Below are positions 5,115-25,832 of a DNA stretch of 26,109 nucleotides, in pieces. This stretch comes from a virus. Below the pieces are notes generated by a model. The model did not search any database, was not told where the DNA came from, and saw only the letters and a program-made list of their open reading frames with translations. How positions within the stretch are numbered: position 1 is the stretch's first letter; each line of letters begins with the position of its first letter. Made by a program: the position numbers and the translations under genes. The stretch spans positions 1 to 26,109 of the IMG/VR virus record IMGVR_UViG_3300043015_001993; one strand, 5' to 3'.

Positions 5115-7655
5115 ATGGCAAGAAAAAACCGACTCTTTGCAAAACTAGCTAGTGATGTTGATACTAGCGGAAACCTCGCAGCAACAGGTATTCAATCTGA
5201 AGCATTAGATACTGGTGTTACTGTATATGCATCTGCTGGTAATTTGCCTGTATCTGGTAATACCGCAGGTGATCAAGCTTTTGTAACCGGTACTGGTCGT
5301 TTGTATATTTTTTCTGGTGTTGGTTGGTATAATGTTGCATTAATTAATAATACGCCAATTATTCAGTCTGTACTAGATTCAGATGGGGGAGCAACTCCAT
5401 TTAGTCTAGCACAAGATGGTACAGCTACTACAATTACTATTACCGCTACGGATTCGGATGGTGAAACAATTACTTATAATGCCACTGCAGATTCAGACTT
5501 TGGTGGACTCGCATCCATATCACAATCGAGTAATGTATTTACTATAACACCATTTAGTCAAGATTCTGCAACGGCTTCATCCGGTACAATTACGTTTACT
5601 GCAACAGACGGTATTAATACCGCAACTTCAGCAACGCAGACGTTTACACTAAATTTCTTATCCCAATATTGGGATGAAACGGTATTAAGTATTGGAACTT
5701 CTAGCACTAATGGATTAGATAATAGTACATTCGTTGAGCGTTCTACTAATGCACATACTGTTACACCAACTGGTACTCCGGTTCAAACAGCATTCCATCC
5801 GTATCTTAATAAGTGGAGTGTTGAGTTTGATTCACTGTCTTCAAGAATCTATACAGGGAGTAGTTCTGATTTTGGAATCGGCACTAATGATTTTTCATAT
5901 GAGGGCTGGATTTATATTAATGATCTTACTGGGTTTACTACCTACTCTACTGGTTTCGGTTTAGGGGCAAACTTCTATGGATCTGACACGTTACGCTTAA
6001 TTTTAAGAGATGCGGCAAACGGTAATTACATAACACTTTGTTTCGTAAATGCTAGAGTGCTAGTCAGTACGACAACTTTTGAAACAGGTCAATGGAATCA
6101 TATTGCAGTTTGTAGATCAGGTAATACTCTGTCGATGTTTTACAACGGCACACGAATTGCTACCGCAACGTATACAACAAACATCAATAGTGGAAATGCT
6201 ACTCATGCTTATGTTGGTCACACCGGAACTAATACTGAAGGATTCAAAGGTAACGTATCAAACGTAAGATTTCTTAATGGATCTTCTGCTTATGATGCAA
6301 CATCTTCATCAATAACTGTGCCGACAGAACCGTTAACTGCTATCACCAATACAAAATTGTTAACGTGTCAATCTAATCGTTTCATTGATAACTCATCATC
6401 GGGTCATACTTTAACCCTTGGAGTAGTCCCAAAAGTCTCTGCCTTCAACCCATTCGGTCAAGAGTCTGAGTATGCGGTGGGAGAGAATAAGGGATCTGTT
6501 TATTTAAATGGTAGTTCATATATGACGTTAGCAACGTCACCATTTCATATGGATCAATCAGATTACACAGTAGAATGTTGGATATATCCAACCGTACTAG
6601 GGCGATATATAATGGGTATCTGGTCGTCTACAAGCGCATCAAATCAGGCATGGTCATTAAGAACGTTCAGTGGTGGTGAGATTAACTCTGAAATTGATCC
6701 CGGTGATGTCCAAATTGCAACTTCTTCTGCGGGAATCATAAAACTAAACCAGTGGCACCATGTTGCATTAACTAGATCCGGAGGAGATTTTAGAATATTT
6801 GTAGATGGAGATGTTGTAGCAAGTGGTAGTAGCCCCGGATTTAATATGGCTGAAGGTGGTGGATTTATGGGAATTGGTGCAGTTCAAGGATTAACTGGTA
6901 GTCCTTTTACTGGATATATTTCGGACGTCTATATTAGAAAAGGTGCCGCAAAATATACTTCAGCATTTACCATACCAACCGCACCTGTTCAAAATACCGA
7001 CGCTACTTTGTACCTCCCATTTGATAACGCAGGTATCTTTGATAAAACGGGTAATCATACTCTGGCATTGAACGGTAACGTTGCTACATCCACTACTCAA
7101 ACTAAGTTTGCTGATACTGCGATGTACTTTGATGGGAGTGGGGATTATCTAGCCTTGCCTGCAAGTTCAGAAACAGATTTCGGCACGGGCGATTTTACCG
7201 TCGAAATGTGGGCGAACCCAAGCGCGCAAACAAACGATTACCCATCTCTTATTGCGTGTGCTGCGTCTTGGTCTACTGGGGCGTTTTACATTAGATATGA
7301 CAACGTGGGCAATGCCGACAGCTTTGGTGTTTTTTGGAACCCAGATGATCCGTTGATTATAGCGAATACAACTTCGGCAACTGGGACTTGGCATCATGTT
7401 GCCGTTGTTCGAAATGGAACTTCCATTGTTCTCTATGTAAACGGAACCAATGTTGGTTCTGCGACAATATCATCCACCCGCACATTAAACCTTGGCTTAG
7501 GTGGAGCTGTGTGGATTGGAAACAATGGAAGCGCGCAATGCTTCTATAAGGGCTACATCGAAAACCTCCAGATCCTTAATGGTGTTGCTAAGTACACCGC
7601 AAACTTTACACCACCTACTCAAGAACAGGGTAGACAATATCAGGCGGAGTCATAA
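5115..7655 (+). CDS. LamG-repeat virion protein / putative receptor-binding adhesin
   Basis: An 846-residue protein. Residues 1-75 form a short head region ending in GRLYIFSGVGWYNVA, seen in many phage structural proteins. Residues about 75-180 look like a cadherin/Ig-type beta domain (TITITATDSDGETITYNA and TITFTATDGINTATS). Three LamG/concanavalin A-like jelly-roll domains follow at about 185-400, 455-640 and 655-840, each with the typical strand pair: QWNHIAVCRSG, QWHHVALTRSG and TWHHVAVVRNG, followed by MFYNG, IFVDG and LYVNG. Such domains bind glycans. A late promoter precedes it, so a virion role is likely, probably at the tail or capsid surface; the exact location is inference. The third LamG domain has a base composition near 50% GC, against about 32-43% in the earlier stretches I counted. 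The ribosome-binding site is weak. Confidence 0.85.
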   Translation: MARKNRLFAKLASDVDTSGNLAATGIQSEALDTGVTVYASAGNLPVSGNTAGDQAFVTGTGRLYIFSGVGWYNVALINNTPIIQSVLDSDGGATPFSLAQDGTATTITITATDSDGETITYNATADSDFGGLASISQSSNVFTITPFSQDSATASSGTITFTATDGINTATSATQTFTLNFLSQYWDETVLSIGTSSTNGLDNSTFVERSTNAHTVTPTGTPVQTAFHPYLNKWSVEFDSLSSRIYTGSSSDFGIGTNDFSYEGWIYINDLTGFTTYSTGFGLGANFYGSDTLRLILRDAANGNYITLCFVNARVLVSTTTFETGQWNHIAVCRSGNTLSMFYNGTRIATATYTTNINSGNATHAYVGHTGTNTEGFKGNVSNVRFLNGSSAYDATSSSITVPTEPLTAITNTKLLTCQSNRFIDNSSSGHTLTLGVVPKVSAFNPFGQESEYAVGENKGSVYLNGSSYMTLATSPFHMDQSDYTVECWIYPTVLGRYIMGIWSSTSASNQAWSLRTFSGGEINSEIDPGDVQIATSSAGIIKLNQWHHVALTRSGGDFRIFVDGDVVASGSSPGFNMAEGGGFMGIGAVQGLTGSPFTGYISDVYIRKGAAKYTSAFTIPTAPVQNTDATLYLPFDNAGIFDKTGNHTLALNGNVATSTTQTKFADTAMYFDGSGDYLALPASSETDFGTGDFTVEMWANPSAQTNDYPSLIACAASWSTGAFYIRYDNVGNADSFGVFWNPDDPLIIANTTSATGTWHHVAVVRNGTSIVLYVNGTNVGSATISSTRTLNLGLGGAVWIGNNGSAQCFYKGYIENLQILNGVAKYTANFTPPTQEQGRQYQAES

Positions 7656-8188: not shown

Positions 8189-8980
8189 ATGAAAAAACTG
8201 ATCTATCAGGTTTCTATTGGGAAACCTTCTAAATTATATGGACATTGTACTCAATCGGTAAAAGACTATGCAGACCGAATTGGTGCAGATTATATTAAAC
8301 AAACAATTCCTACCTTAAAAATCAAGCCAGATCCTTTTGCTACAAATAGGCATCCAAATGCTTGGGAAAAGCATGGCGGATTTATGCCTATCTTTGAAAA
8401 AGAAAATGTCTTTAATTATTTTGATGAATATGACATGTGCTGTGTTATAGATGCCGACATCTATGTTCGTCCAGATGCACCAGACATTTTTGAAGAGATG
8501 AGTGAAAATGATACCGTTGGTTCTGTTTATGAATGCGATCTACCAATCAATGACGCGTATGCTGCAAAGATTAAACAGTATTCTCAAAATTGCTGGTCTA
8601 ATTATATGAAGTTTGATTGGAATCCACAGCCACGTACGGGATTAGATTTCTTTAATTCTGGTGTAATGCTTTATAATTCAAAGAATATGAAAAAAGCATT
8701 AAATGGAATGACACCAAAACAGTTCTTGCAGCAGCCGATGTTAAAAGATTTCATTGATGGCATTGGTTGGTTAAAATGGCAGTCAGATCAGATGACCCTA
8801 AATTATTGGTTTAAAGCAAAAGGCATTCCGGTCAAACGCTTGAATTGGAAGTGGAATACATTATTCACTGCGGTTTATACTAAAGATATGAAAGAAGCTC
8901 ATTTTGTGCATTTCTTCCTTAAAGATAAATTGCCTAATCATGGTGAAAATGTAGAACAACTTATGAAAGAAATTACATGA
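8189..8980 (+). CDS. GT8-like glycosyltransferase (GT-A fold)
   Basis: A 263-residue protein. The N-terminus MKKLIYQVSIG is a GT-A first strand; VIDADIYV at 86-93 supplies the DxD metal/nucleotide-sugar motif; NSGVMLYN at 156-163 and SDQMTLNYW at 199-207 match the acceptor-side motifs of GT8-type enzymes; HFVHFFLKDK near 238-247 is the usual C-terminal His motif. It should transfer a sugar from a nucleotide-sugar in the cytoplasm; donor and acceptor are unknown. It is related to the proteins at 11942 and 12712, which share the MKxxIYQ-type start and motif order. First gene of the overlapping glycan cassette; it overlaps the next gene by 4 nt. An alternative is a glycosyltransferase-like protein without activity. 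Confidence 0.8.
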   Translation: MKKLIYQVSIGKPSKLYGHCTQSVKDYADRIGADYIKQTIPTLKIKPDPFATNRHPNAWEKHGGFMPIFEKENVFNYFDEYDMCCVIDADIYVRPDAPDIFEEMSENDTVGSVYECDLPINDAYAAKIKQYSQNCWSNYMKFDWNPQPRTGLDFFNSGVMLYNSKNMKKALNGMTPKQFLQQPMLKDFIDGIGWLKWQSDQMTLNYWFKAKGIPVKRLNWKWNTLFTAVYTKDMKEAHFVHFFLKDKLPNHGENVEQLMKEIT

Positions 8981-9483
8981 TACCAATGATGACAAAGAAT
9001 GAATGGGAATTTTTAAAATCCTATTTACATTCTGATCAAATCATGTTAGAATATGGTTCTGGCATAAGTACTGGATTATTAGCTAAACTAGTGAATACTT
9101 TATATTCAATTGAGCACTATAAAGATTGGTATAACAGAGTAGTTAAAGAAATAAAAGGTTTAGATAATGTGCAGTACCTTTATATACCAAAGGAAAGCGG
9201 TGCACCGAAAGAAGATCGCAATCTAGATCCTAAGTTTTATGAGAAATATATAAACTGGCCAAAGACACAAGATGTAATATTTGATGTTGTGTTCATTGAT
9301 GGACGAGCTAGACAATGGGTTGCTGAATCTATACTGGATAATATAAGAGATGATTCTTTAGTTTTTATCCACGATTGGAATCCAAAACTAAAACCAAAAT
9401 ACAGAATGCGTTACAAGAGAATATTAGATCTTTACGATATTGTAAAATCAGAAAATATGATGACATTACTGAGAAAAAAATGA
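8977..9483 (+). CDS. class I SAM-dependent methyltransferase-like protein
   Basis: A 168-residue protein. LEYGSGISTGLL at about 24-35 is SAM motif I (E-x-G-x-G), LYSIEHYKDWY at 43-53 ends strand beta-2 with an acidic residue, FDVVFIDGRAR is motif IV, and LVFIHDWNPK is the motif V/VI region. The size and pattern fit small sugar or natural-product methyltransferases, and the position inside a glycosyltransferase cassette suggests it methylates a sugar; that is inference. Start and stop overlap both neighbours by 4 nt (ATGA), so translation is coupled. Confidence 0.75.
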   Translation: MIPMMTKNEWEFLKSYLHSDQIMLEYGSGISTGLLAKLVNTLYSIEHYKDWYNRVVKEIKGLDNVQYLYIPKESGAPKEDRNLDPKFYEKYINWPKTQDVIFDVVFIDGRARQWVAESILDNIRDDSLVFIHDWNPKLKPKYRMRYKRILDLYDIVKSENMMTLLRKK

Positions 9484-10172
9484 TTATTGATCCTAAAATT
9501 TTTATTCATATACCAAAAAATGCTGGTACAACCGTACGATTAAGTCCTATATTGAAAGGTAGGATTATTGAATCAGTTCCACAAAACCATAAAAGCAAAG
9601 AATATTCTGCTGCTGTAAAAGCACATATGGATAAGATTGGCGATCACCACGGATATGAGCATGCAAGATGGCGGGATTTAAAACCAACTCTTACGTCAGC
9701 TTATGACGCATTTGCAGTGATCCGCAATCCATGGTCTCGTGTGGTATCACGCTATCTTTTTGCAAAGAAAGTAACCGAAGTTGAAAAGAAACCTGATGCT
9801 CCACCTGGAAAATATAAAATTAATTCCCTAGAACATTTCTTAGAAGAACGCCATGAATGGGGAAACATGGAATATATGTGGCATCGTGCAATCCGTGGAT
9901 GGTACCCACAAATTGATTATGTTACTGATGAATCCGGAAACATCCGCTGTGATTGTATTCGTCAAGAAGAATTTGATACTGCAATCAAACAGTATTTTAA
10001 ATTGCCTAGTATGGATCGTCATCGGAATGTGACAAATATGTTAAAAGGAGATTGGAAAGATTTATATAATGAGAAGACAATTCAAATTGTTGGTGATTGG
10101 TATCAAGCAGATATCGATGCATTTGGATTTGATTTCGATACTCCTGCACAAAAGAATTATTGGAGTTTATAA
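9480..10172 (+). CDS. PAPS-dependent sulfotransferase-like protein (first of two)
   Basis: A 230-residue protein. IHIPKNAGTT at residues 9-18 is the 5'-phosphosulfate-binding loop of the Sulfotransfer_2/carbohydrate sulfotransferase type, and VIRNPWSRVVSRY at 80-92 is the 3'-phosphate-binding motif (Arg and Ser). Both parts of the PAPS site are therefore present. It should move sulfate from PAPS to a hydroxyl, most plausibly on the glycan made by the surrounding enzymes. The start is ATG 9480, overlapping the methyltransferase stop; a longer in-frame extension to 9375 would run into the upstream gene and precede the motif with unrelated sequence. A second sulfotransferase follows directly. 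Confidence 0.88.
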   Translation: MIIDPKIFIHIPKNAGTTVRLSPILKGRIIESVPQNHKSKEYSAAVKAHMDKIGDHHGYEHARWRDLKPTLTSAYDAFAVIRNPWSRVVSRYLFAKKVTEVEKKPDAPPGKYKINSLEHFLEERHEWGNMEYMWHRAIRGWYPQIDYVTDESGNIRCDCIRQEEFDTAIKQYFKLPSMDRHRNVTNMLKGDWKDLYNEKTIQIVGDWYQADIDAFGFDFDTPAQKNYWSL

Positions 10173-10780
10173 TGTCTTGTAGATTAACTGAAAAGAATGT
10201 TACATTCATACATATTCCAAAAACTGGTGGAAAATCAATTCGTAAGTTTTTAGAGACTAATCATGACTTTGTAAGAAAAACAATTCATGGAAAGGACAAT
10301 TTAGAAAAATTATCTCCCGCAGAATGGAATAAAGCTAAACATCCAACAATGATAGAAACAAAAGAGATTTATGGACTGGATGATTTGGGATATATTTTCA
10401 CTTGCGTTAGAAATCCATATCATCGTATTATGAGTGGATATTTTCACATGACACATATGAAAATAATTCCGAACTGTACATTTAGTAGATTTATTAAAGA
10501 TAAAATTCATTACGACGGATTTATGAGACCAATGGTTGATTATATTGAGGATATGACTGGTGTTAATCACATTATGAAATACGAGACATTAACCGAAGAC
10601 TTTGAATATATAAAAAGTGAATTAAAGTTAGAAGGTGATTTGCCGAATATTGGTAAATCTTTTAATACTAATAATGTATATTCAAATATATACAAAAACA
10701 ATCCAGAATTTATAAAAATGGTTTATAACTTATATAGGCCAGATTTTATTAGATTTGAATACGATAGGGATCAAATATGA
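10172..10780 (+). CDS. PAPS-dependent sulfotransferase-like protein (second of two)
   Basis: A 202-residue protein. IHIPKTGGKS at 13-22 is the 5'-PSB loop in its most typical form, and CVRNPYHRIMSGY at 78-90 is the 3'-phosphate motif. It is clearly of the same family as its upstream neighbour but diverged outside the motifs, so the two probably act on different positions or sugars. The start is ATG 10172, with GGAG 6 nt upstream at 10162-10165; an in-frame TTG at 10160 is less likely. The stop overlaps the next start (ATGA). Confidence 0.88.
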   Translation: MSCRLTEKNVTFIHIPKTGGKSIRKFLETNHDFVRKTIHGKDNLEKLSPAEWNKAKHPTMIETKEIYGLDDLGYIFTCVRNPYHRIMSGYFHMTHMKIIPNCTFSRFIKDKIHYDGFMRPMVDYIEDMTGVNHIMKYETLTEDFEYIKSELKLEGDLPNIGKSFNTNNVYSNIYKNNPEFIKMVYNLYRPDFIRFEYDRDQI

Positions 10781-11940
10781 AAATTTTAGTACTCGGCGGC
10801 GATGGTTTTTGCGGATGGCCAACTGCATTAAAACTATACGCAAATGGACATGATGTTTTAATCCTAGATAATCTATCTAGAAGATTAATTGATGATGAAT
10901 TAAAAACTTCATCCCTCACGGAAATTGCCACAATTGAACAAAGAATCAGAAAAGCCCAATCTGTGATTGGCAATAAACAAGGTTCTGGTAGTATTAAGTT
11001 TGTACGATGTGATGTTAGAAAATATCATAAACTTGTTGAGCACCTCCGTGCTTTTTGGCCAGATGCGATTGTACATTTTGCAGAACAAAGATCTGCTCCA
11101 TATTCAATGATCTCTCAAAAAGAAAGACGATATACTATTGAGAATAATATCCTTGCTACTAATGCAGTACTCGATGCTATCGTAGATGTGAATCCAAAAA
11201 TTCATTTAGTACACCTAGGAACTATGGGTGTGTATGGCTACTCAAAAGAATTTGGCGATATTCCGGAAGGATATTTAGACGTACAAATTAAAGAAACGCA
11301 AGAAGACGTTAGTATATTATATCCAACAAATCCAGGTAGTATCTACCATATGACCAAATCATTGGATCAGATTTTATTCCAATTCTATAATAAAAACTGG
11401 GGAATTAAAATTACTGATCTTCATCAAGGTATTGTATGGGGAACACAGACAGAAGAAACTAAATTGCATCCGCATTTAATGAATCGATTTGATTATGATG
11501 GAATCTATGGTACAGTCTTAAATAGATTTATTGTTCAGGCAGCATCAGGCAATGAGCTAACTGTTTACGGCACTGGTGGGCAGAAACGTGCATTTATTCA
11601 TATTGAAGATTCTGCTCGGTGTATTCAACTTGCTTGTGAAAATCCACCGACTGGAAAAGACCCGAAGGTGCGTATTTTTAATCAAGTATCAGAGTGTAAA
11701 ACTGTTAAACAACTAGCACAATATGTTGCGCGCGCATACAATGCTAATATTTCTTATGTTAAGAATCCGCGTAAAGAGGCTGAATCAAATGAACTTACGG
11801 TGCATAATGAAGGATTACAATCGCTTGGGTTTAAACCTTTAACTCTGCAGAAAAAATTAGTAGATGATACCCAGGTATTGGCTGAAACATTTAAGAACGG
11901 AGTGGACAGAAGTAAGTTCTTAATGTCACCAAATTGGTAA
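10777..11940 (+). CDS. sqdB: UDP-sulfoquinovose synthase (SQD1/SqdB family)
   Basis: A 387-residue extended short-chain dehydrogenase, full length for the family. The enzyme converts UDP-glucose and sulfite to UDP-sulfoquinovose, using NAD. The Rossmann motif GGDGFCG is at 7-13. Thr149 in LGTMGVYG and Tyr190/Lys194 in YHMTK give the catalytic triad. Hallmarks that separate this family from ordinary epimerases are present: DNLSRRLIDDEL, FAEQRSAPYSMI (101-112), DLHQGIVWGTQTEET, HPHLMNRFDYDGIYGT, LNRFIVQAASG and LTVYGTGGQKRAFIHIED. These closely follow plant SQD1 as I remember it. No GT4-type sulfolipid synthase (SqdX/SQD2) lies in the window, so the product may feed a glycan instead. It sits between the sulfotransferases and five glycosyltransferases, overlapping upstream by 4 nt. 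Confidence 0.93.
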   Translation: MKILVLGGDGFCGWPTALKLYANGHDVLILDNLSRRLIDDELKTSSLTEIATIEQRIRKAQSVIGNKQGSGSIKFVRCDVRKYHKLVEHLRAFWPDAIVHFAEQRSAPYSMISQKERRYTIENNILATNAVLDAIVDVNPKIHLVHLGTMGVYGYSKEFGDIPEGYLDVQIKETQEDVSILYPTNPGSIYHMTKSLDQILFQFYNKNWGIKITDLHQGIVWGTQTEETKLHPHLMNRFDYDGIYGTVLNRFIVQAASGNELTVYGTGGQKRAFIHIEDSARCIQLACENPPTGKDPKVRIFNQVSECKTVKQLAQYVARAYNANISYVKNPRKEAESNELTVHNEGLQSLGFKPLTLQKKLVDDTQVLAETFKNGVDRSKFLMSPNW

Positions 11941-11941
11941 T

Positions 11942-12715
11942 ATGAAAAACGCAATATTTTCTTATTTTCTACCGGCTGCCGGTGTTGATAAGCTGAAACA
12001 TTATAGAGGACTAGACGGTATCCCTGAATGGGGAATCCGTGCTAGTTCTTATTTCCAAAAATACGCCAATATTCACGGTGTTGATTATCACTTCTCTACT
12101 GAATCATATTGTAATGCAAGATCAAATTATTTTGAGATATGTCGTGTTTATCTCGATCCGATGTTTGACCAATACGATAAAGTATTATTTGTAGATTTAG
12201 ATGTTGTTCCAAAAGATATGTCCGCAAACATATTTGATATCGATGTTATTGATATTGCAGGATGGCCAGAATTTAAACATACAAAAATTAAAGGCGATCC
12301 TAAGTGGGATGACAATCCTCCGCTCAGAGCCAGATTCGAACACTTTGGCGCACCGATGATCAAACCTAAAACTGCAACTGATAACAGTACGCGGATGCTA
12401 AATACAGGTGTATTATTATGGTCAAAAGAAGCAAGATTAAAAGCCCGAGAAAGTTTTGATCATTTTGAAGATTGGTTTGGATATAAAAATAAATTACTAG
12501 AACCCGGTAAATGGGAAGACTTTGGACATAGTTCTTATTGTTTAGATCAGCCGTTTCTTAATGCTATGTTTAATAAATTTAATTTTGATGTTCTAGAACT
12601 GGATTATAAATGGAATAGGTTCCCTACAAAAGATGAAAATGAGCCATGTTATTTTGCTCATTATCTTGGTAAGGATGGAAAGAATGTTATACTAGATGTG
12701 TTCCCTGAATTATGA
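11942..12715 (+). CDS. GT8-like glycosyltransferase (GT-A fold)
   Basis: A 257-residue protein. VLFVDLDVVP at 81-90 contains the DxD motif (Asp85, Asp87), MLNTGVLLW at 152-160 and CLDQPFLNAMF at 200-210 are the typical acceptor and catalytic-side motifs, and FAHYLGKDGK at 237-246 is the C-terminal His/Lys element contacting UDP phosphates. This is the most typical GT8-like member of the cassette. A nucleotide-sugar donor is assumed; UDP-sulfoquinovose from the adjacent synthase is an attractive but untested candidate. It begins one base after the synthase stop and overlaps the next gene by 4 nt. Confidence 0.83.
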   Translation: MKNAIFSYFLPAAGVDKLKHYRGLDGIPEWGIRASSYFQKYANIHGVDYHFSTESYCNARSNYFEICRVYLDPMFDQYDKVLFVDLDVVPKDMSANIFDIDVIDIAGWPEFKHTKIKGDPKWDDNPPLRARFEHFGAPMIKPKTATDNSTRMLNTGVLLWSKEARLKARESFDHFEDWFGYKNKLLEPGKWEDFGHSSYCLDQPFLNAMFNKFNFDVLELDYKWNRFPTKDENEPCYFAHYLGKDGKNVILDVFPEL

Positions 12716-13365
12716 AAACTATTATATACCAAAATATTGTTAACGAACCAGATCTTCAAGAGAATAAAAGACTTTTGTTTGATACGGCTGCAACGACTAT
12801 AGAACGTTATGCAAATAATATTGGATCTGAATATTTACTCTCAAGAGAAAAATATTTTCCAAACTACCACTCTATATGGGGTATTTTTAGAATTTTAAAA
12901 GATCCGACATTTAAGGAATATGATAAAGTAGTATTTGTAGACGGTGATGTATTTGCAAGAAATACTAAAAATAATATATTTAAAAAGTATGATAGTTTTG
13001 CAGCATGTCGAAATACCGAAAATGATCGATCCCATATGCGACCCGAATATAAATTGTTTGGACCAAGGTTTTTTAACTCAGGTATCGTAATATTTAATCC
13101 TGAAGATATTGATAAATTAAGTAAAAACAATCCTGACAAATATATGAGAGAATATCAGAATGTAAAACCTGGTAGAGATCAATTAGCATTAAATGTTATG
13201 GCACATCAAATCTTAGGTCCATACATTGAGATTATGAAAAAAGATGCATGCTATTTAAAAGATGAATCAGAATCTATGACTGCACCATTAGTTCACTTAG
13301 CAGGAAGAGACCGGCAAAAATATTGGAATAATATTAATTTTTGGAATGAACAGTTTGAGGTATAA
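12712..13365 (+). CDS. GT8-like glycosyltransferase (GT-A fold)
   Basis: A 217-residue protein, shorter than its two paralogues in the cassette. VVFVDGDVFA at 73-82 carries the DxD motif as Asp77/Asp79, FFNSGIVIFN at 120-129 and GRDQLALNVM at 154-163 are the acceptor-side motifs, and VHLAGRDRQKYW near the C-terminus replaces the usual His-x-x-Gly-x-x-Lys element. The start MKTIIYQNIV echoes the gene at 8189. It probably adds one sugar to the growing glycan; donor and linkage cannot be read from the sequence. Confidence 0.8.
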   Translation: MKTIIYQNIVNEPDLQENKRLLFDTAATTIERYANNIGSEYLLSREKYFPNYHSIWGIFRILKDPTFKEYDKVVFVDGDVFARNTKNNIFKKYDSFAACRNTENDRSHMRPEYKLFGPRFFNSGIVIFNPEDIDKLSKNNPDKYMREYQNVKPGRDQLALNVMAHQILGPYIEIMKKDACYLKDESESMTAPLVHLAGRDRQKYWNNINFWNEQFEV

Positions 13366-14046
13366 ATGGAAGCCCATATTATTACATTGACATCTAATCT
13401 ACGATCATCTGCAGCAGCAGATCGATGTAAAAAATCAGCTAATATACCAATTAAAACATTTGAAGCTGTAACTGAAACACAAGCCGAAAAACTTATGAGA
13501 GATTTTTATATCAGATGGAATTATCCGTGGAAGGGTGAGGAATACGATATGAAAGCAGGTGTGAAAAAAACTGCATATCAGACTGTTGAACCTATGAGAA
13601 GAATTGCTTGTTTCTTATCTCATTATCTTTTATGGAAACGTTGTGCAGAGCAAAACGAACCACTCATGGTTCTAGAACATGATGCAATCTTTATTAAACC
13701 ATTTGATGAAACACCATTTATGAAAGCCGAATGTGAAATTATTTCAATTAACGATCCACGTGGTGCTACGCGCAAGGCGCAAGACTTTCATGAGAAATTA
13801 CAAAAAGGACCACAACTAATTCAACGTGTTCCAACTATTGATGATCTCATGATTCCTCAAGGATTGCCTGGAAACAGTGCATACATAATTAAACCAGGCG
13901 GAGCTCAAAAGATGCTCGAGCTTGTAAAAGAATTTGGTGCTTGGCCAAATGATGCTTTGATGTGTAAACAACTAATTCAAACATTAGCGTCAAGTAAGGT
14001 TTATTATACAAAGGTACAAGGTACTCCTTCGACAACATCATTATGA
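13366..14046 (+). CDS. GT25-like (LPS-type) glycosyltransferase A
   Basis: A 226-residue protein. MEAHIITLTSNLRSS is the N-terminal strand and Arg loop of GT25 (LPS/LOS glycosyltransferase) enzymes. RRIACFLSHYLLWKRC at 78-93 is the hallmark 'GCxxSH' helix, with Ala in place of Gly. VLEHDAIF at 102-109 stands where most members have an ED(D) metal motif, here EHD. GNSAYIIKPGGAQKML is the conserved C-terminal acceptor region. It is paired with a tandem paralogue that shares the RSxxxADRCxKSA start, so the two arose by duplication. Base GAGG upstream is the ribosome-binding site. Confidence 0.82.
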   Translation: MEAHIITLTSNLRSSAAADRCKKSANIPIKTFEAVTETQAEKLMRDFYIRWNYPWKGEEYDMKAGVKKTAYQTVEPMRRIACFLSHYLLWKRCAEQNEPLMVLEHDAIFIKPFDETPFMKAECEIISINDPRGATRKAQDFHEKLQKGPQLIQRVPTIDDLMIPQGLPGNSAYIIKPGGAQKMLELVKEFGAWPNDALMCKQLIQTLASSKVYYTKVQGTPSTTSL

Positions 14047-14684
14047 AAGCAAGTGTAATTACAATCATTAACAATATCCGATCTCGTCAAGTTGCGGATC
14101 GTTGCATTAAATCAGCAGCTGCAAATGGTTTACATGTAGATTATTTTTCTGCAATTACTCCGGACAGCGATCCATTAAAAATCGCTTCTCAAGAAAATAT
14201 TCCTATTGAAGGATTTGAAGAAAAGTATTCAAGGTTTACTAATTGCCTTGCTGCTTTCTTATCTCATTATTGGTTATGGAAAGTAACTGCAGCAGGGACA
14301 CATCCTCACGTAATTTTTGAACATGATGCCGTTATGGTAAGTCCGCTTCCAAATGTTTTTCACGGTGATATTGTAAATCTTGGTAAGCCTTCTTATGGTA
14401 AATGGAATACACCAACATTTTTAGGTGAAGGCCCATTAACATCAAAAGCATATTTCCCTGGGGCACACGCATACTATATTACTCCAAAAGGAGCACAGCA
14501 ATTGATTGATCAGGCACACATTGATGCTGGTCCTACAGATATTTTTATTAATAAAAGCCATTTTAATGATTTAAAAGAAGTATTTCCGTATTGTGCTGAA
14601 GCAAAGGATAGCTTTACGACAATTCAAAATGAAACCGGGTGTCTAGCTAAACATAACTATGGTGAATCGTATGAAGTTATTTAA
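14043..14684 (+). CDS. GT25-like (LPS-type) glycosyltransferase B
   Basis: A 213-residue paralogue of the preceding gene. It has MKASVITIINNIRSR, the shared ADRCIKSAA, CLAAFLSHYWLWK at 68-80, IFEHDAVM at 91-98 (again EHD rather than EDD) and GAHAYYITPKGAQQLID. Retention of the unusual EHD in both copies suggests it is functional in this subfamily. It overlaps the upstream gene by 4 nt and the downstream gene by 14 nt. It likely transfers a hexose in the cytoplasm; specificity unknown. Confidence 0.82.
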   Translation: MKASVITIINNIRSRQVADRCIKSAAANGLHVDYFSAITPDSDPLKIASQENIPIEGFEEKYSRFTNCLAAFLSHYWLWKVTAAGTHPHVIFEHDAVMVSPLPNVFHGDIVNLGKPSYGKWNTPTFLGEGPLTSKAYFPGAHAYYITPKGAQQLIDQAHIDAGPTDIFINKSHFNDLKEVFPYCAEAKDSFTTIQNETGCLAKHNYGESYEVI

Positions 14685-15315
14685 AAATGCGGTATTAATT
14701 GGTTGTGATGCTAAGCAAGAATGGATGATGCGATGGTGGTTTGACAATTATAAAAAACATAATAACCTACCGGTCATTTGTGCTGATTTTGGTTTATCTC
14801 CTCAAGGTCGTAAATATGCTGAATCTCAGTCTAAGCACGTAATTGATATGACTGGTATCCAAGAAAAAGGATGGTTTAAAAAACCAAAGTCAATGTTAGC
14901 GTGTCCTGCAGAAAAAACTTTGTGGATTGATATTGATGCAGAAATAAAAGGATCGTTGAAAGAAGCTTTTAATATGTTCGAACCAGGTAAACTTGCAATG
15001 GTTGAAGATCATCCATGGAAAAAACGCCGTGGTGAACTATGGCATAATTCTGGAGTAGTCGGGTTTATTGGTAAACCACAGATTTTAAAAGATTGGGCAG
15101 CTAGAGTTGAAGCAAATCCTAGAATCGGTGATCAAGAAGTTCTTCATAGTATGTTAAATCCTATTACAAAAATTACATATATAAAAGATCTTCCGCATCG
15201 ATTTAATGTGTTACGAATTGATGTTGATGATAATAATGTTCCAAAAGATCCTGTCGTTATGCATTGGACTGGATCAAAGGGTAAAGATATAATTAGGAGT
15301 CAGTTGAATGCCTAG
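14671..15315 (+). CDS. glycosyltransferase-like protein, GT-A fold
   Basis: A 214-residue protein. LWIDIDAEI at 84-92 has a DxD motif, WHNSGVVGFI at 124-133 and GDQEVLHS at 153-160 follow in GT8-like order, and MHWTGSKGK at 197-205 resembles the C-terminal His-x-x-Gly-x-Lys element. It is more diverged than the other GT8-like genes, and LPVICADFGLSP resembles the nucleotide-diphospho-sugar transferase group. ATG 14671 is chosen over an in-frame ATG at 14659, because GGTG precedes it and it keeps a smaller overlap with the upstream gene; this choice is uncertain. Confidence 0.7.
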   Translation: MKLFKNAVLIGCDAKQEWMMRWWFDNYKKHNNLPVICADFGLSPQGRKYAESQSKHVIDMTGIQEKGWFKKPKSMLACPAEKTLWIDIDAEIKGSLKEAFNMFEPGKLAMVEDHPWKKRRGELWHNSGVVGFIGKPQILKDWAARVEANPRIGDQEVLHSMLNPITKITYIKDLPHRFNVLRIDVDDNNVPKDPVVMHWTGSKGKDIIRSQLNA

Positions 15316-15931
15316 GATTGTACATATTATTGGTAATGGCGATGCAGCTCATACGTACAATGAAGAACCGCGTAAAGGTTTAAAGCTTACATGTAATATG
15401 CCACCATTCCCAGTTGAAGATGCTTATGGTACGGTAATGGTCGATTTTAAAATGATGCAAGCTTTGACTAAAGGCGAGATCACTTTACCAGGTGATTGGA
15501 TTTTAGGATTTCGTCCAAAAATCTGGATGGAAAAACAACCGGCTTGGTATGTTAAAATGTCATCTCAAGTGAAAGAATTTTATTTAAAATTGCCAAAATA
15601 TGTAAAAAACTATACTGATTTTAATTGTGGGCATATGGCTACTCATTATGCTTGTAGTAAATTTAAACCAGACATTGTTCATATGTACGGATTTGATTCT
15701 ATGTTTGATATGAACCTGAGATCATATACAGATTTATTTTTACCATCACCAAGAGATGACGGAAGTAATGTTAGATTAAGCGATAATTGGAGACCTGTTT
15801 GGACTGGTATTTTTAATGAATTTAAAGATACTGAATTTGTTTTGCATCATTTCCATGATCAGCTTAAAATGAAAGTACCAGACAATGTAAGAGTTGAAAT
15901 TCATCATAAAAAGAATAAGAAAGCTAAATAA
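15308..15931 (+). CDS. Rossmann-like protein closing the glycan cassette, possible GT29/DUF115-type
   Basis: A 207-residue protein beginning MPRIVHIIGNGDAAHTY, a strand-loop typical of a Rossmann fold. It has LKLTCNMPPFP and a later HMYGFDSMFD, and a basic tail (HHKKNKKAK). The IIGNG...TCN...YGFDS order recalls DUF115/GT29-like sialyltransferase-type proteins of bacteria and phages, but I cannot confirm this. Its position as last gene of the overlapping cassette (8-nt overlap upstream) supports a role in glycan synthesis. There is no DxD-type GT-A motif. Confidence 0.6.
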   Translation: MPRIVHIIGNGDAAHTYNEEPRKGLKLTCNMPPFPVEDAYGTVMVDFKMMQALTKGEITLPGDWILGFRPKIWMEKQPAWYVKMSSQVKEFYLKLPKYVKNYTDFNCGHMATHYACSKFKPDIVHMYGFDSMFDMNLRSYTDLFLPSPRDDGSNVRLSDNWRPVWTGIFNEFKDTEFVLHHFHDQLKMKVPDNVRVEIHHKKNKKAK

Positions 15932-20022: not shown

Positions 20023-20744
20023 TGGCTAAGCCACGCGTTAAAACAGGAATCAGAGGCATTCCGCAAGATCGTGGATTCCGTGCAGTTGATTACTACATGC
20101 ATTACGATCTTGAAAAGAAAGATCTTGTAAAGTTAGCTAAAGACTATATCAAGAAAAACTATTCAAAAGAAGATGCTAAGGCAATTAATGCAAATGCTGA
20201 GTGGAACTTTACCATGTATAATGGTATTGTTGCTGCAGCATATTGTATAGATAATGATATTGACTTCCCTGAAGAATATGCAAGATATCCGGAAGAAGTT
20301 AAAACATATTTCGATGGATTGCTTTTAAAGGGTAAAGGACTCCTACGAGCTAAAGCTTTATTAGAGGAAGTTCGCGAAACAAAAAAGATCTTAACGCCAC
20401 AGCAGAGGTTACTGAATAAGATTCATGCTACGGTTATGCTTGACATTGACAAGATGGAAGATGAATGGTACGAAGGTGAAAAAACAGACTTTGATATCGT
20501 TGCATCATTCCGGATCAATGAGTTAAAAGGTATGGCTGTCGCACCTGTTGTGGCGTATCTGAAGCGTATGCTACCTGAGTATGAGGATGCTCATAGTGGG
20601 AATTGCAAGGATGCAAAGGTAGCATACGCACACCTTGGTAAGCGTGAATTATCGCGTCGTATTAAGGTGATAAATAACATGATAGCTGAGCTTGAAAAAT
20701 ATAAGATAGCTCAGAAACAAATGCGAAAACGGAAAGCTAAATGA
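20022..20744 (+). CDS. conserved T4-like phage protein upstream of gp33, unknown
   Basis: A 240-residue protein. It begins MAKPRVKTGIRGIPQDRGFR and is rich in Lys and Glu helices (ALLEEVRETKKILTPQQRLL; then MEDEWYEGEKTDFDIVASF), ending in a basic tail (QMRKRKAK). The segment YEDAHSGNCKDAKVAYAHLG is conserved-looking. Homologues stand next to gp33/gp32 in marine T4-like phages as I recall, always without function. The location suggests a link to replication or late transcription. It overlaps gp33 by 4 nt. Confidence 0.72.
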   Translation: MAKPRVKTGIRGIPQDRGFRAVDYYMHYDLEKKDLVKLAKDYIKKNYSKEDAKAINANAEWNFTMYNGIVAAAYCIDNDIDFPEEYARYPEEVKTYFDGLLLKGKGLLRAKALLEEVRETKKILTPQQRLLNKIHATVMLDIDKMEDEWYEGEKTDFDIVASFRINELKGMAVAPVVAYLKRMLPEYEDAHSGNCKDAKVAYAHLGKRELSRRIKVINNMIAELEKYKIAQKQMRKRKAK

Positions 20745-20974
20745 GCGTAGAAGAAAATTTCTTAACAAAAGCAAAATTTTCAAAACTGGTCGAAAGAACA
20801 GTGATTGAAAAACGTCTATCTTATATGGATGCAATAGTATGGTTATGTGAAGAACACAACATTGAGATAGAAGATTGCCGAAAGTTTATTAATCCTATCA
20901 TTAAGGATAAGCTTGAGGCAGAGGCAAGAAGATTAAACTTTTTACCTCGCACTAATGAGTTAGTGTTCGAATAA
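20741..20974 (+). CDS. 33: late transcription co-activator gp33
   Basis: A 77-residue protein homologous to T4 gp33, which bridges the sliding clamp and RNA polymerase and enables transcription from TATAAATA promoters. FSKLVERTVIEKRLSYMDAI parallels the T4 stretch ending in MSYLEA; WLCEEHNIEIEDC parallels FLEENSIPETQF; KFINPIIKDKLEAEARRLN parallels KFIPSGIIEKIQSEAIDEN. The C-terminal NELVFE matches the position of the T4 clamp-binding hydrophobic end (NTLDFLL). It is shorter than T4 gp33 (112 residues), lacking most of the N-terminal arm. Placement directly before gp32 is as in T4-like genomes. Confidence 0.85.
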   Translation: MSVEENFLTKAKFSKLVERTVIEKRLSYMDAIVWLCEEHNIEIEDCRKFINPIIKDKLEAEARRLNFLPRTNELVFE

Positions 20975-21044: not shown

Positions 21045-21938
21045 ATGTCATTCGAAAATCTAAAGCGCAATCGCGATCAAATCAATAAACTCCTCAATGC
21101 CGCAGAATCTGTCGGTGGAACTCAAGAAAAGAAATCATATGGTGATGACCGTTTCTATAAGCCAGCTGTCGATAAGGCAGGTAATGGTTACGTAGTACTT
21201 CGTTTCTTGCCTGCACCTGAAGGTGAAGATCTTCCGTGGGTACGGTACTGGGATCACGGATTCAAAGGTCCTACAGGGATGTGGTATATTGAACGATCGT
21301 TGACTTCTATCGGCCAACCAGATCCAGTCGGTGAGTTAAACTCACGTCTATGGAATACTGGTGTAGAGGCTGATAAAGACCGTGCACGTACGCAGAAGCG
21401 TCGTCTACATTATGTAACTAATGTACAGATCGTTAGTGATCCTGCTAATCCAGAAAATGAGGGTAAAGTATTCCTCTATCAATTTGGTAAGAAGATCTTT
21501 GACAAGATCATGGACGTTATGCAACCGGCATTCCAGGATGAAACTCCGGTCAATCCATTTGACTTCTGGGAAGGTGCGAACTTCAAGTTGAAGATTCGTA
21601 ACGTGGAAGGTTATCGCAACTATGATAAGTCTGAGTTTGAGTCACCATCACAACTAGCTGATGACGCTCAACTCGAAGAGATCTACGGTAAGTTGAACCC
21701 ACTTAATGAGTTCACGGATCCAAAGAACTACAAGACTTATGACGAACTCAAGGCTAAGTTAATGCGAGTTCTTGGTGAAGAGGTAGAAGCTGGTGCTCCT
21801 ACTCTGAAGCAGGAAGCTCAAATGAACGAACCAGCTCCAGCACCATTGCTCGAGCCAGTCACAGCTGATGAGATTCCGTTCGATACCGATGAAGATGACA
21901 CAATGTCATACTTCGCTAAGTTGGCTAATGACGATTAA
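21045..21938 (+). CDS. 32: single-stranded DNA-binding protein gp32
   Basis: A 297-residue T4 gp32 homologue, which coats ssDNA in replication, recombination and repair. Shared landmarks: the basic N-terminal LKRNRDQINK in place of the T4 LAST motif; GNGYVVLRFLPAPEGE; HGFKGPTGMWYIE (71-83); DPANPENEGKVFLYQFGKKI; NPFDFWEGANFKLKIRNVEG; NYDKSEFE; and an acidic C-terminal tail (DEIPFDTDEDDTMSYF), the protein-interaction domain. The three Cys ligands of the T4 zinc site are absent: where T4 has Cys77, Cys87 and Cys90, this protein has ERSLTSIGQPDPVGEL. It has its own promoter. The stop codon overlaps the stop of the convergent tape-measure gene. Confidence 0.95.
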   Translation: MSFENLKRNRDQINKLLNAAESVGGTQEKKSYGDDRFYKPAVDKAGNGYVVLRFLPAPEGEDLPWVRYWDHGFKGPTGMWYIERSLTSIGQPDPVGELNSRLWNTGVEADKDRARTQKRRLHYVTNVQIVSDPANPENEGKVFLYQFGKKIFDKIMDVMQPAFQDETPVNPFDFWEGANFKLKIRNVEGYRNYDKSEFESPSQLADDAQLEEIYGKLNPLNEFTDPKNYKTYDELKAKLMRVLGEEVEAGAPTLKQEAQMNEPAPAPLLEPVTADEIPFDTDEDDTMSYFAKLANDD

Positions 21939-24217
21939 ATCATTCGTGTACGACCTATTCCAGATACGAATGGGTCGTCAAAATCAAATGGTTTTGATAT
22001 AACTGGCATAGCAGTATTTGATGTAGAACTTGATTTTGTGCTATTGTCAGAAATTATTACAGGCGCAGGTGCTCTAGTTGCTTGCGCCTTTTTGTTTTCT
22101 TCAGCTTCTCTTACCATTGATCCAAATACGTTACCGATATTATTTGGTTTAATTGCTTCTTTAATTGGATTTGATTTCATCTTTGGCATAGTAATCTGAT
22201 CAAATCCAGCAGCACTAAACATACTTTTCATATTACCCATCATCGATGGCATTTCACCCATCATAGATTGGGCAATATCCATATCTGATGCGCCAGCCGC
22301 CCTCATAGCATCTTCTTTTGCTTTTAGCTCAGTACCTTTTTGCTGCGTTGCTTTCATAATTCCACTATCTTGGAATTTTGTCATAATCTGACCAAGCGTA
22401 TTACCCATTCCTTCTGGGATCATGCTACCAGGTAAAGGTTTAGGTTTAGCACCACTTGGCAAACGTGTTGGTTCAGATTTAGGTTTAACACTACTTGGCA
22501 AAGGTGTTAGTTCAGATTTAGGTAATTCTTTTGGTTCAGATTTAGGTTTAGCACCACTTGGCAAAGGTGTTAGTTCAGATTTAGGTAATTCTTTTGGTTC
22601 GGATTTAGGTAATTCTTTTGGTTCAGATTTAGGTAATTCTTTTGGTTCAGATTTTGGTATGGGTTTGTTATCAGTTAAAGGCTTATTATCACTTGTTCGA
22701 TAAATGAAACCATCTCGCTGTCTCATACGACCAGCATCCGGACCATCGATAACTGGCATTGTTGCTCCATTGAGGGGTTTGCCACTTAATGTCAGACCGC
22801 TATTAAATGCATTTATAGCCGATTGATGCATTATTTGTTGGGCCTGCGATGGCATAGGACCTTGGTTTTCTTCTTGATATGCTGCCCACGATGCAGCGTA
22901 GTCTATTTTACCACCTTTATTTTTTTCGTAATCTTGAAGAACTTTTCCATGTTCACTATCTTTAGGAACAATTGCTTCTTCACCATGAGCTACAACTGGT
23001 GTACCTTTACCAAAGTTGGCAAATAATTTACCAAAAGCACCAACCGTCCCGTTATTTGCCCCTGGTATTTCAAGTGTTTCAGTTCCATCATTAGGCTTAT
23101 CAGCATTTGGGTCACCTTTAACAAAATTCTTAAATGCTTCCCAGCCATCACTAACAGCTTGACCAACGTCAAAATTAGTAATCCAATCAATAATCTTATT
23201 AATTGTCTTAGCTATTGCCATTCCAAAGTCTTTAATCATTTGTTCAAAATCAAATGCTTCATCAAACTTAGCAGCATCTTCTTCTGATAATATACCAAGT
23301 TTTTTACCAATCCATAATGTAATAGATTTGATAAGATTTAATGGAGCTCCGACAATAGATCCGAGTAAACCAGATACTGCTCCAGTTAATGCACCAACAA
23401 AACCTTCTTCTTCATAGCCTTCAATTGCACCCTTAATAGTATCATAAGCAGTAAAGATAAGACCGATAGGTAAGAATATTTTTTTAAGGACTCCGCCAAA
23501 TCCTTGGAGTAGTTTGAGGATTTTACTGTCTTCTGCAAATGTAAATGCAGATTTTAATGCACTCATCGCTTTACCAAACTTAGTGCCTTCACCAAATAAA
23601 CCAGATAAAGTTTTTCCCGCACCGCCAAATGCATCTGCGATTCGATTAATAGCTCTTCCAATAATATTAGGAGCTTTCATGAAGCGTCCAGTCTCAATAT
23701 TTCTCCAACGTTGTGCAACCTCATCAAAGACTGCAGCTGGTCCACGCAATGCCTCAATCAGTTTTACAATTGCAATTCCAATAATACCTTCACCACTGAA
23801 CATTTTAAAGAATGCTTTGAGTTTATTTCCCATTCCTAACCAGGCAGATGCAAAGGTTCTTGAAATATCATTCATTGTTTCATCTAATGATGCAATAACA
23901 GCACCGCTGAATCCAGCAACAATTGTTCCCAGAGTTCCAGTTAATGCTGCAACTGCCGCACCGATTCCAGCAAATAGGCCAGCTGTTGGTAAGTCAATAC
24001 TAGTATCTTGACTTCCTTTATTTTTCTTTTTAGCACCGCCTTCAATAGCTTCTTCACGACCTTTTAACTTTTCACCTTTCATCGTTTCTATAAACGCAGA
24101 AAAATTACTATTCATTCTCGAAAGGCTAACTGACATGTTGGTAAGTGTCTGGCCTTGTTCTTTATTTTCGTCGACTAATGCTTTTGTTATTGCAAAAAGC
24201 GGTGATGCTTCAGCCAT
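21935..24217 (-). CDS. tail tape-measure protein, gp29-like position
   Basis: A 760-residue protein. Residues 1-90 are helical, with a basic segment. Hydrophobic Gly/Ala-rich stretches at about 78-115 and 260-310 (GLFAGIGAAVAALTG; FVGALTGAVSGLLGSIVGAP) are typical of tape-measure proteins, which set tail length and enter the host membrane. FGKGTPVVAHGEEAIVPKDS near 425-445 is a motif common in phage tape-measure proteins. Residues about 515-595 contain PKSEPKEL-type repeats. The C-terminal 160 residues are helical and Met-rich. T4 gp29 is 590 residues; the extra length lies partly in the repeats. The start overlaps the stop of the small upstream ORF (TAATG). It converges on gp32 with overlapping stop codons. 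Confidence 0.85.
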   Translation of the reverse strand: MAEASPLFAITKALVDENKEQGQTLTNMSVSLSRMNSNFSAFIETMKGEKLKGREEAIEGGAKKKNKGSQDTSIDLPTAGLFAGIGAAVAALTGTLGTIVAGFSGAVIASLDETMNDISRTFASAWLGMGNKLKAFFKMFSGEGIIGIAIVKLIEALRGPAAVFDEVAQRWRNIETGRFMKAPNIIGRAINRIADAFGGAGKTLSGLFGEGTKFGKAMSALKSAFTFAEDSKILKLLQGFGGVLKKIFLPIGLIFTAYDTIKGAIEGYEEEGFVGALTGAVSGLLGSIVGAPLNLIKSITLWIGKKLGILSEEDAAKFDEAFDFEQMIKDFGMAIAKTINKIIDWITNFDVGQAVSDGWEAFKNFVKGDPNADKPNDGTETLEIPGANNGTVGAFGKLFANFGKGTPVVAHGEEAIVPKDSEHGKVLQDYEKNKGGKIDYAASWAAYQEENQGPMPSQAQQIMHQSAINAFNSGLTLSGKPLNGATMPVIDGPDAGRMRQRDGFIYRTSDNKPLTDNKPIPKSEPKELPKSEPKELPKSEPKELPKSELTPLPSGAKPKSEPKELPKSELTPLPSSVKPKSEPTRLPSGAKPKPLPGSMIPEGMGNTLGQIMTKFQDSGIMKATQQKGTELKAKEDAMRAAGASDMDIAQSMMGEMPSMMGNMKSMFSAAGFDQITMPKMKSNPIKEAIKPNNIGNVFGSMVREAEENKKAQATRAPAPVIISDNSTKSSSTSNTAMPVISKPFDFDDPFVSGIGRTRMI
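22437..22670 (-). repeat. 24-nt coding repeats in tape-measure gene (PKSEPKEL)
   Basis: Near-identical 24-nt units encoding PKSEPKEL (four copies) interleaved with PKSELTPLPSG/PKSEPTRLPSG variants. Three units in a row near 22590-22665 differ by single bases only, which indicates recent expansion by slippage or recombination. Confidence 0.8.
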
Positions 24218-24351
24218 TATTGATTTCCTTGCTGTCTAGCCCTATCATTTTGTTCTTCAATATGATTAATAAGCATAGTTAAATAAATTTCCCTCTCCCA
24301 AGGAATCATATTGTCTAGTTCATTTAACGCGTAATTAAAATTTTGCATCAT
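24217..24351 (-). CDS. small tail-assembly-chaperone-like ORF between gp26 and tape measure
   Basis: A 44-residue reading frame from the first ATG (24351-24349), with a second ATG adjacent. The protein contains YALNELDNMIPWEREIYLTM and ends HIEEQNDRARQQGNQ. The pattern 'E-L-D-x-M-x-P-W-E-R-E-I-Y' is typical of the small C-terminal (T-like) partners of tail assembly chaperones encoded before tape-measure genes. The ATG has only a poor ribosome-binding site. The frame is open for another 18 codons upstream, back to the slippery run at 24405-24411, and those codons also look protein-like (SHDNLENYYKVNFQ), so the normal product may be a frameshift fusion to the gp26-like protein. In T4 the hub assembly catalyst gp51 is encoded nearby; similarity in role is inference. 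Confidence 0.6.
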   Translation of the reverse strand: MMQNFNYALNELDNMIPWEREIYLTMLINHIEEQNDRARQQGNQ

Positions 24352-24401
24352 CTGAAAGTTAACCTTATAATAGTTCTCTAGATTATCATGAGAGAGGCAT
24401 A

Positions 24402-25106
24402 TTAAAAAAAATCGTCAAGTCCTTGTAATTTTACGTTTTGTTCATAACTACAGTTTGTACATGTAAACCCAGTATTATATTCTAATTGAGGAATTTCTTG
24501 TACAAAATCTGAAATCATTTCAAATTGTTTTGAATTCATTGATTCAACAAACTTTATTACTTCTTCTCTTGGTTCATCTTTTGCTGAAATATTATCTTCT
24601 TCAGTCATAATTGAATCAATACATGATACAACTACATCCATAATTGTATCTGTATGTGTTTTATTCTCAACATCTAGATTCGTCATAAAATCGTAATATG
24701 TTGGATACTTTAATTTAATCGAAATATCTTCACTTAGTTTTACAACTTTTTCCTTTGTATTACCATTCACTTTTACTTTTTCTACATCAACAGTAATTGG
24801 ATTATACGTTTCACATTGATCGCATTTAATAGTTAATTCGATTTTTTCGCCAACAGATTTTGCTCTTAGCTGTGTAAAAATATAATCAACATCTGATGTT
24901 GTTAATGTTTTAGGATTTATCTCATCAACACAAGAGGAAATTGTCTCTAACATTGCATTGATAATTTGTTTCTTATCTTGGCTTTCATATGCCAACATAA
25001 GGACCTTTTGTTCTTTTACCAAAAATGGTCTAAACTTATATTTTTTACCAGTTGATGGTACACTCAATTCATACGCCGGTGACGCATTTAACGAAGGCAA
25101 TGCCAT
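24402..25106 (-). CDS. 26: baseplate hub protein, gp26-like (T4_baseplate family)
   Basis: A 234-residue protein. Residues 12-38 (YELSVPSTGKKYKFRPFLVK then EQKVLMLA) are the signature of the T4 baseplate/gp26 family. IKCDQCETYNPI (CxxC) and TGFTCTNCSYEQN (CxxC) near the C-terminus could form a zinc ribbon. It ends LDDFF, encoded over a run of eight T that forms a -1 frameshift site. T4 gp26 is a hub component or assembly factor made with gp51; here the location before the tape-measure gene suggests a chaperone-like role in tail assembly. The start ATG is preceded by a purine-rich GGAG site. Confidence 0.82.
   Translation of the reverse strand: MALPSLNASPAYELSVPSTGKKYKFRPFLVKEQKVLMLAYESQDKKQIINAMLETISSCVDEINPKTLTTSDVDYIFTQLRAKSVGEKIELTIKCDQCETYNPITVDVEKVKVNGNTKEKVVKLSEDISIKLKYPTYYDFMTNLDVENKTHTDTIMDVVVSCIDSIMTEEDNISAKDEPREEVIKFVESMNSKQFEMISDFVQEIPQLEYNTGFTCTNCSYEQNVKLQGLDDFF
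24405..24411 (-). promoter_or_regulatory. candidate -1 programmed ribosomal frameshift site (T TTT TTT)
   Basis: On the minus strand, the last sense codons of the gp26-like gene read GAT TTT TTT TAA. The heptamer T TTT TTT is a canonical X-XXY-YYZ slippery site and is followed immediately by the 0-frame stop at 24404-24402. A -1 slip continues in TTA ATA TGC CTC and stays open for 62 codons to the TAA at 24219-24217, giving a 296-residue fusion. I did not find a clear downstream stem. Confidence 0.6.
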
Positions 25107-25118
25107 AATTTACTCCAA

Positions 25119-25832
25119 TTAAAATCCAATATCAAGATTAATAAAGTTTTGAGAAGGTTTAGTTCTCTTCCAGTTAGTATAAGACAGCTGAACTGTCACC
25201 TGAATAATTCCATCTAAATCATTCGTAAAAGTAATTTCATTAATAGTAGTCGGAAATGCTTCTAATAATTCTACAGTATATACACTTCCTCCACCGATAC
25301 CAATTCCAGCTGAGATTGGTCCTAGGTTTGCTGAGAATCCAATTTGCGGTTTTCTTAATTGATGGATTTTAACAGACTTTGCGTATTCATCTTTATACTT
25401 TACGATCTGTGCAGTCTTTTGCCCATTAGCTCCATAACCATCATCAATGATTTTTGCCATCCAAGCATCAAAATATAATTTAACGCTATAATCGTTTAGC
25501 ATATAAAAACTAATTGATAATTCTGAAACTGCATATCCATACGCAATTTTCTCATTAATCATACCAACTTTACGATCAGTTGTTAGTATCTGTTTTCCGG
25601 GCAATCCTGTTGCCTGGCATAATACATTCAGTTCTCTTGGATTTGGTTGTCTATCAGGTGTTAGACCAGGAATAGCTGGAATAAATCCACCAACTCGATC
25701 AATAATTGCACCTAAAAACCCACCAGGAGCAGATGATTCTTCTAATCTAGGAAGTTCAATTAAGAATTGGTTTGATCTAGCGAATCCTAGTTTTGATGAT
25801 GCCATACCTTTTAATTCATTAATACTACTCAT
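25119..25832 (-). CDS. tail tube / baseplate tube-initiator-like protein (gp19/gp54-type)
   Basis: A 237-residue protein with the tail-tube pattern: RSNQFLIELPRLEE at the start, LNVLCQATGLPGKQILTTD, VSELSISFYMLNDYSVKLYF, YKDEYAKSVKIHQL, and VYTVELLEAFPTTINEITF followed by DLDGIIQVTVQLSYTNW at the end. These beta-rich blocks are the common fold of gp19 and the tube initiators gp48/gp54. It is longer than T4 gp19 (163) and shorter than gp54 (320), with a Gly/Pro insertion at about 36-62. The location between a baseplate-type gene and gp26 favours an initiator or baseplate tube protein. It overlaps the upstream gene by 4 nt. Confidence 0.75.
   Translation of the reverse strand: MSSINELKGMASSKLGFARSNQFLIELPRLEESSAPGGFLGAIIDRVGGFIPAIPGLTPDRQPNPRELNVLCQATGLPGKQILTTDRKVGMINEKIAYGYAVSELSISFYMLNDYSVKLYFDAWMAKIIDDGYGANGQKTAQIVKYKDEYAKSVKIHQLRKPQIGFSANLGPISAGIGIGGGSVYTVELLEAFPTTINEITFTNDLDGIIQVTVQLSYTNWKRTKPSQNFINLDIGF

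Follow-up and report, generated by a model that had tools for sequence, protein, structure and literature searches.

A predicted programmed −1 frameshift joining gp26-like and gp51-like coding regions in a marine relative of phage T4

The end of the gp26-like gene in a marine relative of phage T4 raises the question of whether the short reading frame that overlaps it is a gene of its own or the tail of a longer protein, reached by ribosomes that slip back one base. The DNA analysed, referred to here as the window, is a stretch of 26,109 nucleotides from a virus record (IMGVR_UViG_3300043015_001993), and its relevant features are collected in Table 1. On the minus strand the gene ends GAC GAT TTT TTT TAA, in which the heptamer T TTT TTT conforms to the X XXY YYZ pattern in the 0 frame, lies inside the overlap of the two frames and is directly followed by the 0-frame stop codon. 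The slip site forms a run of eight T, the only such run in the window. After a −1 slip, reading would proceed into a 62-residue extension that starts LICLSHDNLENYYKVNFQ-MMQNFNYALNELDNMIPWEREIY and ends at the stop at 24217, so that the predicted fusion has 296 amino acids; the first 18 residues of the extension contain no ATG, GTG or TTG. The first-pass annotation had described the slippery run, the 62 open codons, the 296-residue fusion and a 44-residue product of an internal ATG, and the sequence agrees with all of these readings.

Table 1. Features of the gp26/gp51 locus and its neighbours in the window
Feature	Coordinates	Strand	Basis or remark
Tail tube-like protein upstream of gp26	25119..25832	(-)	PHROG 45 tail tube, 8.1e-29
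gp26-like gene, 0-frame short G-like product, 234 aa	24402..25106	(-)	PF12322 T4_baseplate
SD-like AAGGA, first base 13 nt upstream of heptamer	24420..24424	(-)	SD 4-mer in relatives
Slippery heptamer T TTT TTT	24405..24411	(-)	0-frame stop TAA (24402-24404) directly after
-1 frame extension (T-like part), 62 aa + stop	24217..24405	(-)	PHROG 634 match, conserved frame
Weak possible stem-loop 3' of slip site, -6.6 kcal/mol	24344..24399	(-)	Folding
Internal ATG ORF, 44 aa, rival separate product	24217..24351	(-)	Annotated so in relatives, as 'gp51' gene
760-aa ORF, tape-measure position	21935..24217	(-)	Start overlaps extension stop (TAATG)

Given the base composition of the window, 62 open codons would arise by chance with a probability of about 1.6%. 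Since 7% of its minus-strand positions are open for as long, and five of its ORFs have an X XXY YYZ heptamer of some kind close to the end, the window instance alone is only suggestive, and comparison with relatives was therefore needed. A first comparison set was assembled from 80 IMG/VR loci together with named phages, providing 100 loci with an extension, or 95 after dereplication with the Ackermannviridae type left out; a second, independent set, drawn from genome assemblies, provided 60 judgeable loci. The arrangement proved to be conserved across more than 150 related sequences. In the first set the extension lies in the −1 frame wherever it was found (100 loci), with homology beginning at or beside the heptamer, and in the second it does so in 60 of 60. 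The heptamer T TTT TTN is present in all 95 dereplicated loci (TTC in 63, TTT in 27, TTA in four and TTG in one) and in 59 of the 60 loci of the second set. The first Phe column is encoded by TTT, with a preceding T, in 95/95 loci, the use of TTT in other conserved Phe columns of the gp26 gene being 48-92%; where the next residue is Leu, TTA or TTG is used and the heptamer is kept. It is the conservation of both frame and heptamer in two sets of loci that makes the frameshift signal decisive. The first-pass annotation had proposed such an alignment of the slippery run and extension as a check, and the contrary patterns that it had named did not emerge from it.

A few loci depart from this pattern. 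Two contigs of the first set break off too soon, and at one locus (L098) the heptamer is present with no detectable extension. The remaining locus of the second set (L169) has G TTT TTT A where the others have T TTT TTN, resembling the GTTTTT motif reported in the tail assembly chaperone (TAC) genes of Vandenendeviridae. In three loci of the Ackermannviridae and a relative (L102, L103 and L104) the gp26 gene ends GA(A/G) ATT TTC ATT TAA, without the heptamer, and the matches to the extension after it are weak.

Additional elements surround the slip site. In 87 of the 95 loci an SD-like 4-mer begins 12-15 nt before the heptamer, and the Glu codon at this site is GAG in 53 and GAA in 17 cases, against 736:1596 over whole genes. 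The mean pairing energy of the site is -7.1, compared to -5.4 for synonymous shuffles, yet the pairing is not extreme locus by locus, an average of 34% of shuffles pairing equally well or better. The AAGGA of the window is probably a frameshift stimulator, and the presence of the SD-like element together with T TTT TTY in T4-like phages of several families is well supported. Downstream, the RNA just 3' of the heptamer is more stably folded than its shuffled versions, with a mean z of -1.64 against -0.41 in controls. In part of the cyanophage loci an 11-bp stem is predicted to start 5 nt after the heptamer, its inner pairs having changed on both sides; stem-loops are stronger in some cyanophage relatives, that of the window itself being weak. 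Among 51 cyanophage-type loci, 27 cells show both-side change, a count reached by none of 500 shuffles of the 3' letters, although stems slid by -2 and by +2 yield 33 and 27, respectively, and pairing holds in only 69% of cells. Since RNAalifold over these 51 loci gave no consensus structure, the stem-loop is to be regarded as a property of a subset, and this result, together with the similar counts of the slid controls, leaves moderate evidence for a downstream stem-loop in a subset of cyanophage loci.

The two parts of the predicted fusion belong to recognizable families. The window gp26-like protein matches Pfam PF12322 at 8.3e-62 (209 bits, above the curated cut-off of 24.5 for this model) and PHROG 150 at 1.6e-63. 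Searched as a 61-aa piece, the extension, which the first-pass annotation had considered a plausible domain, matches PHROG 634, the baseplate hub assembly catalyst gp51, through residues 2-60 (2.4e-25), and also matches the C-terminal columns of PHROG 150. The ORF read from its ATG alone reaches 2.8e-16 against PHROG 634; the stronger match takes in residues ahead of the ATG, whose codons the first-pass annotation had called protein-like. No relevant match was obtained in NCBIfam, and no relevant relative among solved structures searched by sequence.

Phage T4 itself offers an informative comparison. Its gp51 (249 aa) matches PF12322 at 3.9e-52, also matches PHROG 634, and its alignment with the predicted fusion spans the junction (E 1e-11); judged by these alignments, T4 gp51 is the whole gp26-like domain with the extension in frame, the equivalent of the fusion, and T4 gp26, which has the short form only, is the equivalent of the short product. 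The T4 locus differs from that of the window in having two separate, divergently oriented genes and no slippery heptamer, gene 26 ending GAG TTC TTT GAG. Two PF12322 genes are found in T4, and one each in KVP40, S-PM2, C48C1, Mosig, RHph_Y68, DSL-LC03, HTVC008M, phiAS5 and Marzo. In T4-type gp51 loci on other contigs the extension is likewise in frame; one such gene (L115, 3001-3746) has its frame broken in an A/C run, probably by a sequencing error. Searches of phage records found relatives of T4 gp51 in 1339 records and of T4 gp26 in 1262, the closest being in enterobacterial T4-type phages. We consider the chances even that the recoding cassette, composed of the SD-like element and T TTT TTY and joined in some clades by the stem-loop, was ancestral to T4-like phages of several families, the T4 branch having replaced it by duplication, with loss of the run in one copy and fusion of the extension in the other.

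The extension is annotated in most relatives as a separate 'gp51' gene. On this reading no fusion would be made; in the window, ribosomes starting at the internal ATG, or re-initiating once past the gp26 stop, would give a 44-aa product. An ATG occurs near the start of the extension in about half of the relatives, at its fourth residue in 40 of 95 loci. However, the first 14 extension residues lack any ATG, GTG or TTG in 19 of the 95 loci, among them the window, and the conserved LSHDNLENYYKVNF precedes any such codon in the window and the 18 others. Substitutions in these pre-start residues fall on the three codon positions at 0.43, 0.34 and 0.55, the third being the most variable. Since the residues are conserved without a start codon, they could hardly be translated except by entry from gp26. 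The possible start lies at varying positions, yet the heptamer is always where homology begins; by its placement the conserved SD-like motif suits slippage and is too distant from those ATGs; and in T4 the gp26 domain and the extension are fused in one chain. An independent gene is therefore improbable, and as the sole explanation it is ruled out by the conserved residues that precede any start in the 19 loci. Because an ATG lies near the gp26 stop in many loci, a free T domain may be made in those relatives in addition to the fusion.

Slippage could also take place during transcription, the RNA polymerase adding a base on the T run and producing the same fusion from an altered mRNA. The eight consecutive T of the window would suit such a mechanism, but in most relatives the sequence is T TTT TTC and the T run no longer than six or seven, and the SD-like motif and the downstream stem-loops of some relatives fit an action on ribosomes, not on the polymerase; we consider this origin slightly less probable still than a separate gene. 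The weakest proposal, that a sequencing or assembly error or gene decay has split one real ORF, draws on the error-prone nature of homopolymer runs and on the single ORF of T4 gp51, but it has a negligible probability and is ruled out by conservation of the frame break, which recurs in independently sequenced isolates and metagenomes, including KVP40, S-PM2 and HTVC008M, at a heptamer that is under selection.

The neighbouring genes and the fold of gp26 are consistent with a role in tail assembly. The gp26/gp51 region is placed between the tail tube and tape-measure-position genes, the position of G and GT. The 760-aa ORF has four hydrophobic segments and homologous ORFs at the same place in relatives; its positional equivalent in HTVC008M matches tape-measure PHROGs, and we infer that it encodes the tape measure. 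An AF2 model of the window gp26 (pLDDT 92.5, pTM 0.86) was compared with PDB chains, and its top three matches were 3fgx (Z 8.0), 2ob9, the HK97 tail assembly chaperone (Z 7.5), and 3klu, YqbN (Z 7.2), the next scoring 4.8; the tool itself notes that Z values of 7-8 are unexceptional, and alone they are no proof. We take 3fgx and 3klu to be phage tail chaperone-type proteins. As 3fgx and 2ob9 fit only about residues 1-94 of the model, it is the N-terminal domain of gp26 that, with moderate Z scores, appears to resemble solved tail assembly chaperones. The model of a T4-type gp51 adds C-terminal helices (206-248), and in a second look at PDB chains it did not retrieve tail assembly chaperones. 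DUF6760, which may act as a T domain of extracellular contractile injection systems, had no match in the window or the control genomes.

Several other observations concern the rest of the window. KSEPKELP units are repeated in the tape-measure-position ORF (22422-22703, minus-strand reading), which overlaps a gp32-like ssDNA-binding gene (21045-21938, +) tail to tail by four bases (21935-21938); a gp33-like late-transcription coactivator is found at 20741-20974. An ORF at 8977-9483 (+) ends CGA AAA AAA TGA, and its −1 frame runs on without a stop for 229 codons, reaching into the next ORF (IHIPKNAGTT...), which is sulfotransferase-like by eye; ATGA start-stop coupling is a more likely account of this junction than frameshifting. 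About ten ORFs in a row (8189-15931, +) appear by eye to encode glycosyltransferases, methyltransferases, a nucleotide-sugar epimerase and sulfotransferases, bringing together many genes of surface-sugar type. An 846-aa protein (5115-7655, +) with three matches to laminin G / concanavalin A-like lectin domains is possibly an adhesin or tail-fibre protein.

The best explanation of the locus, in which we have high confidence on comparative grounds, is a programmed −1 frameshift on T TTT TTT that would give a short G-like and a long GT-like chaperone. Most ribosomes would stop at the TAA and release the 234-aa gp26-like short chaperone, and a minority would slip back one base to make the 296-aa gp26-gp51 fusion, probably aided by the upstream AAGGA. 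By analogy with lambda, the model for the chaperone roles (PMC5009743), the shared part would coat or bind the tape-measure protein. The long form, which is the rarer, would use its helical C-terminal tail to recruit tail tube subunits. T4 would obtain the same pair from two genes, 26 (short, lacking the slippery run) and 51 (long, in frame). We infer the occurrence of slippage, its rate and these biochemical roles from the comparisons described here. Both the frameshift and the assignment of gp26 as G-like and the fusion as GT-like are supported by the conservation of the locus, the in-frame equivalent in T4 gp51, the gene order and the resemblance of the gp26 N-terminal fold. The first-pass annotation had cast gp26 as G and the gp51-position ORF as T; this reading stands, with the correction that the extension is not a gp51 gene in its own right, T4 gp51 comprising the whole gp26-like domain as well as the extension.

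The arrangement has counterparts in known systems. In E. coli dnaX the cassette consists of an SD-like element some 10 nt upstream, a heptamer and a downstream stem-loop. The window has the first two in common with it, and part of the cyanophage relatives may share the stem-loop; the window differs in its T-rich heptamer and the weakness of its own stem-loop. Its gene order equals V-G/T-H of lambda, while the slippery site, in contrast to that of lambda gpG/gpGT, is T-rich, and gp26 is larger, with additional beta / CxxC parts. The TAC locus of Pseudomonas phage Adele and the Andersonviridae (PMC12846349) likewise has a −1 frameshift at a conserved poly-T motif before the tape-measure gene, but there the motif is GTTTTT and the phage families are others. 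The review of Atkins et al. (2016) describes G-T frameshifting as widely conserved, T4 excepted. Vladimirov, Gautam and Davidson (Virology 2022, 566:9-15) are cited in PMC10885494 and PMC12846349 for identifying the tail assembly chaperones of T4-like phages, and also for their poly-T slippery signals and for phages with a short gene and a fused long gene. With respect to that work as cited, no substantive difference from the window locus was found, and the locus is therefore a well-supported further case of an arrangement already described in 2022; the link between the T4 hub assembly factors and the lambda scheme, which the first-pass annotation had proposed, is, according to the same two citing papers, already contained in it. 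The SD-like element and the stem-loop may be new, as may the documentation of the arrangement in Kyanoviridae, Pootjesviridae, non-T4 Straboviridae and several unclassified phages.

The finding corrects the annotation of marine T4-like records, which usually split the gene into a 'baseplate hub' and a 'baseplate hub assembly catalyst'. It also suggests what T4 gp51, a protein that assembly requires but the particle lacks (PMC3004832), may do. Finally, the use of one frameshift gene in some phages and of two genes in others provides a natural comparison that could reveal whether contractile tails are sensitive to the proportion of short and long chaperone.
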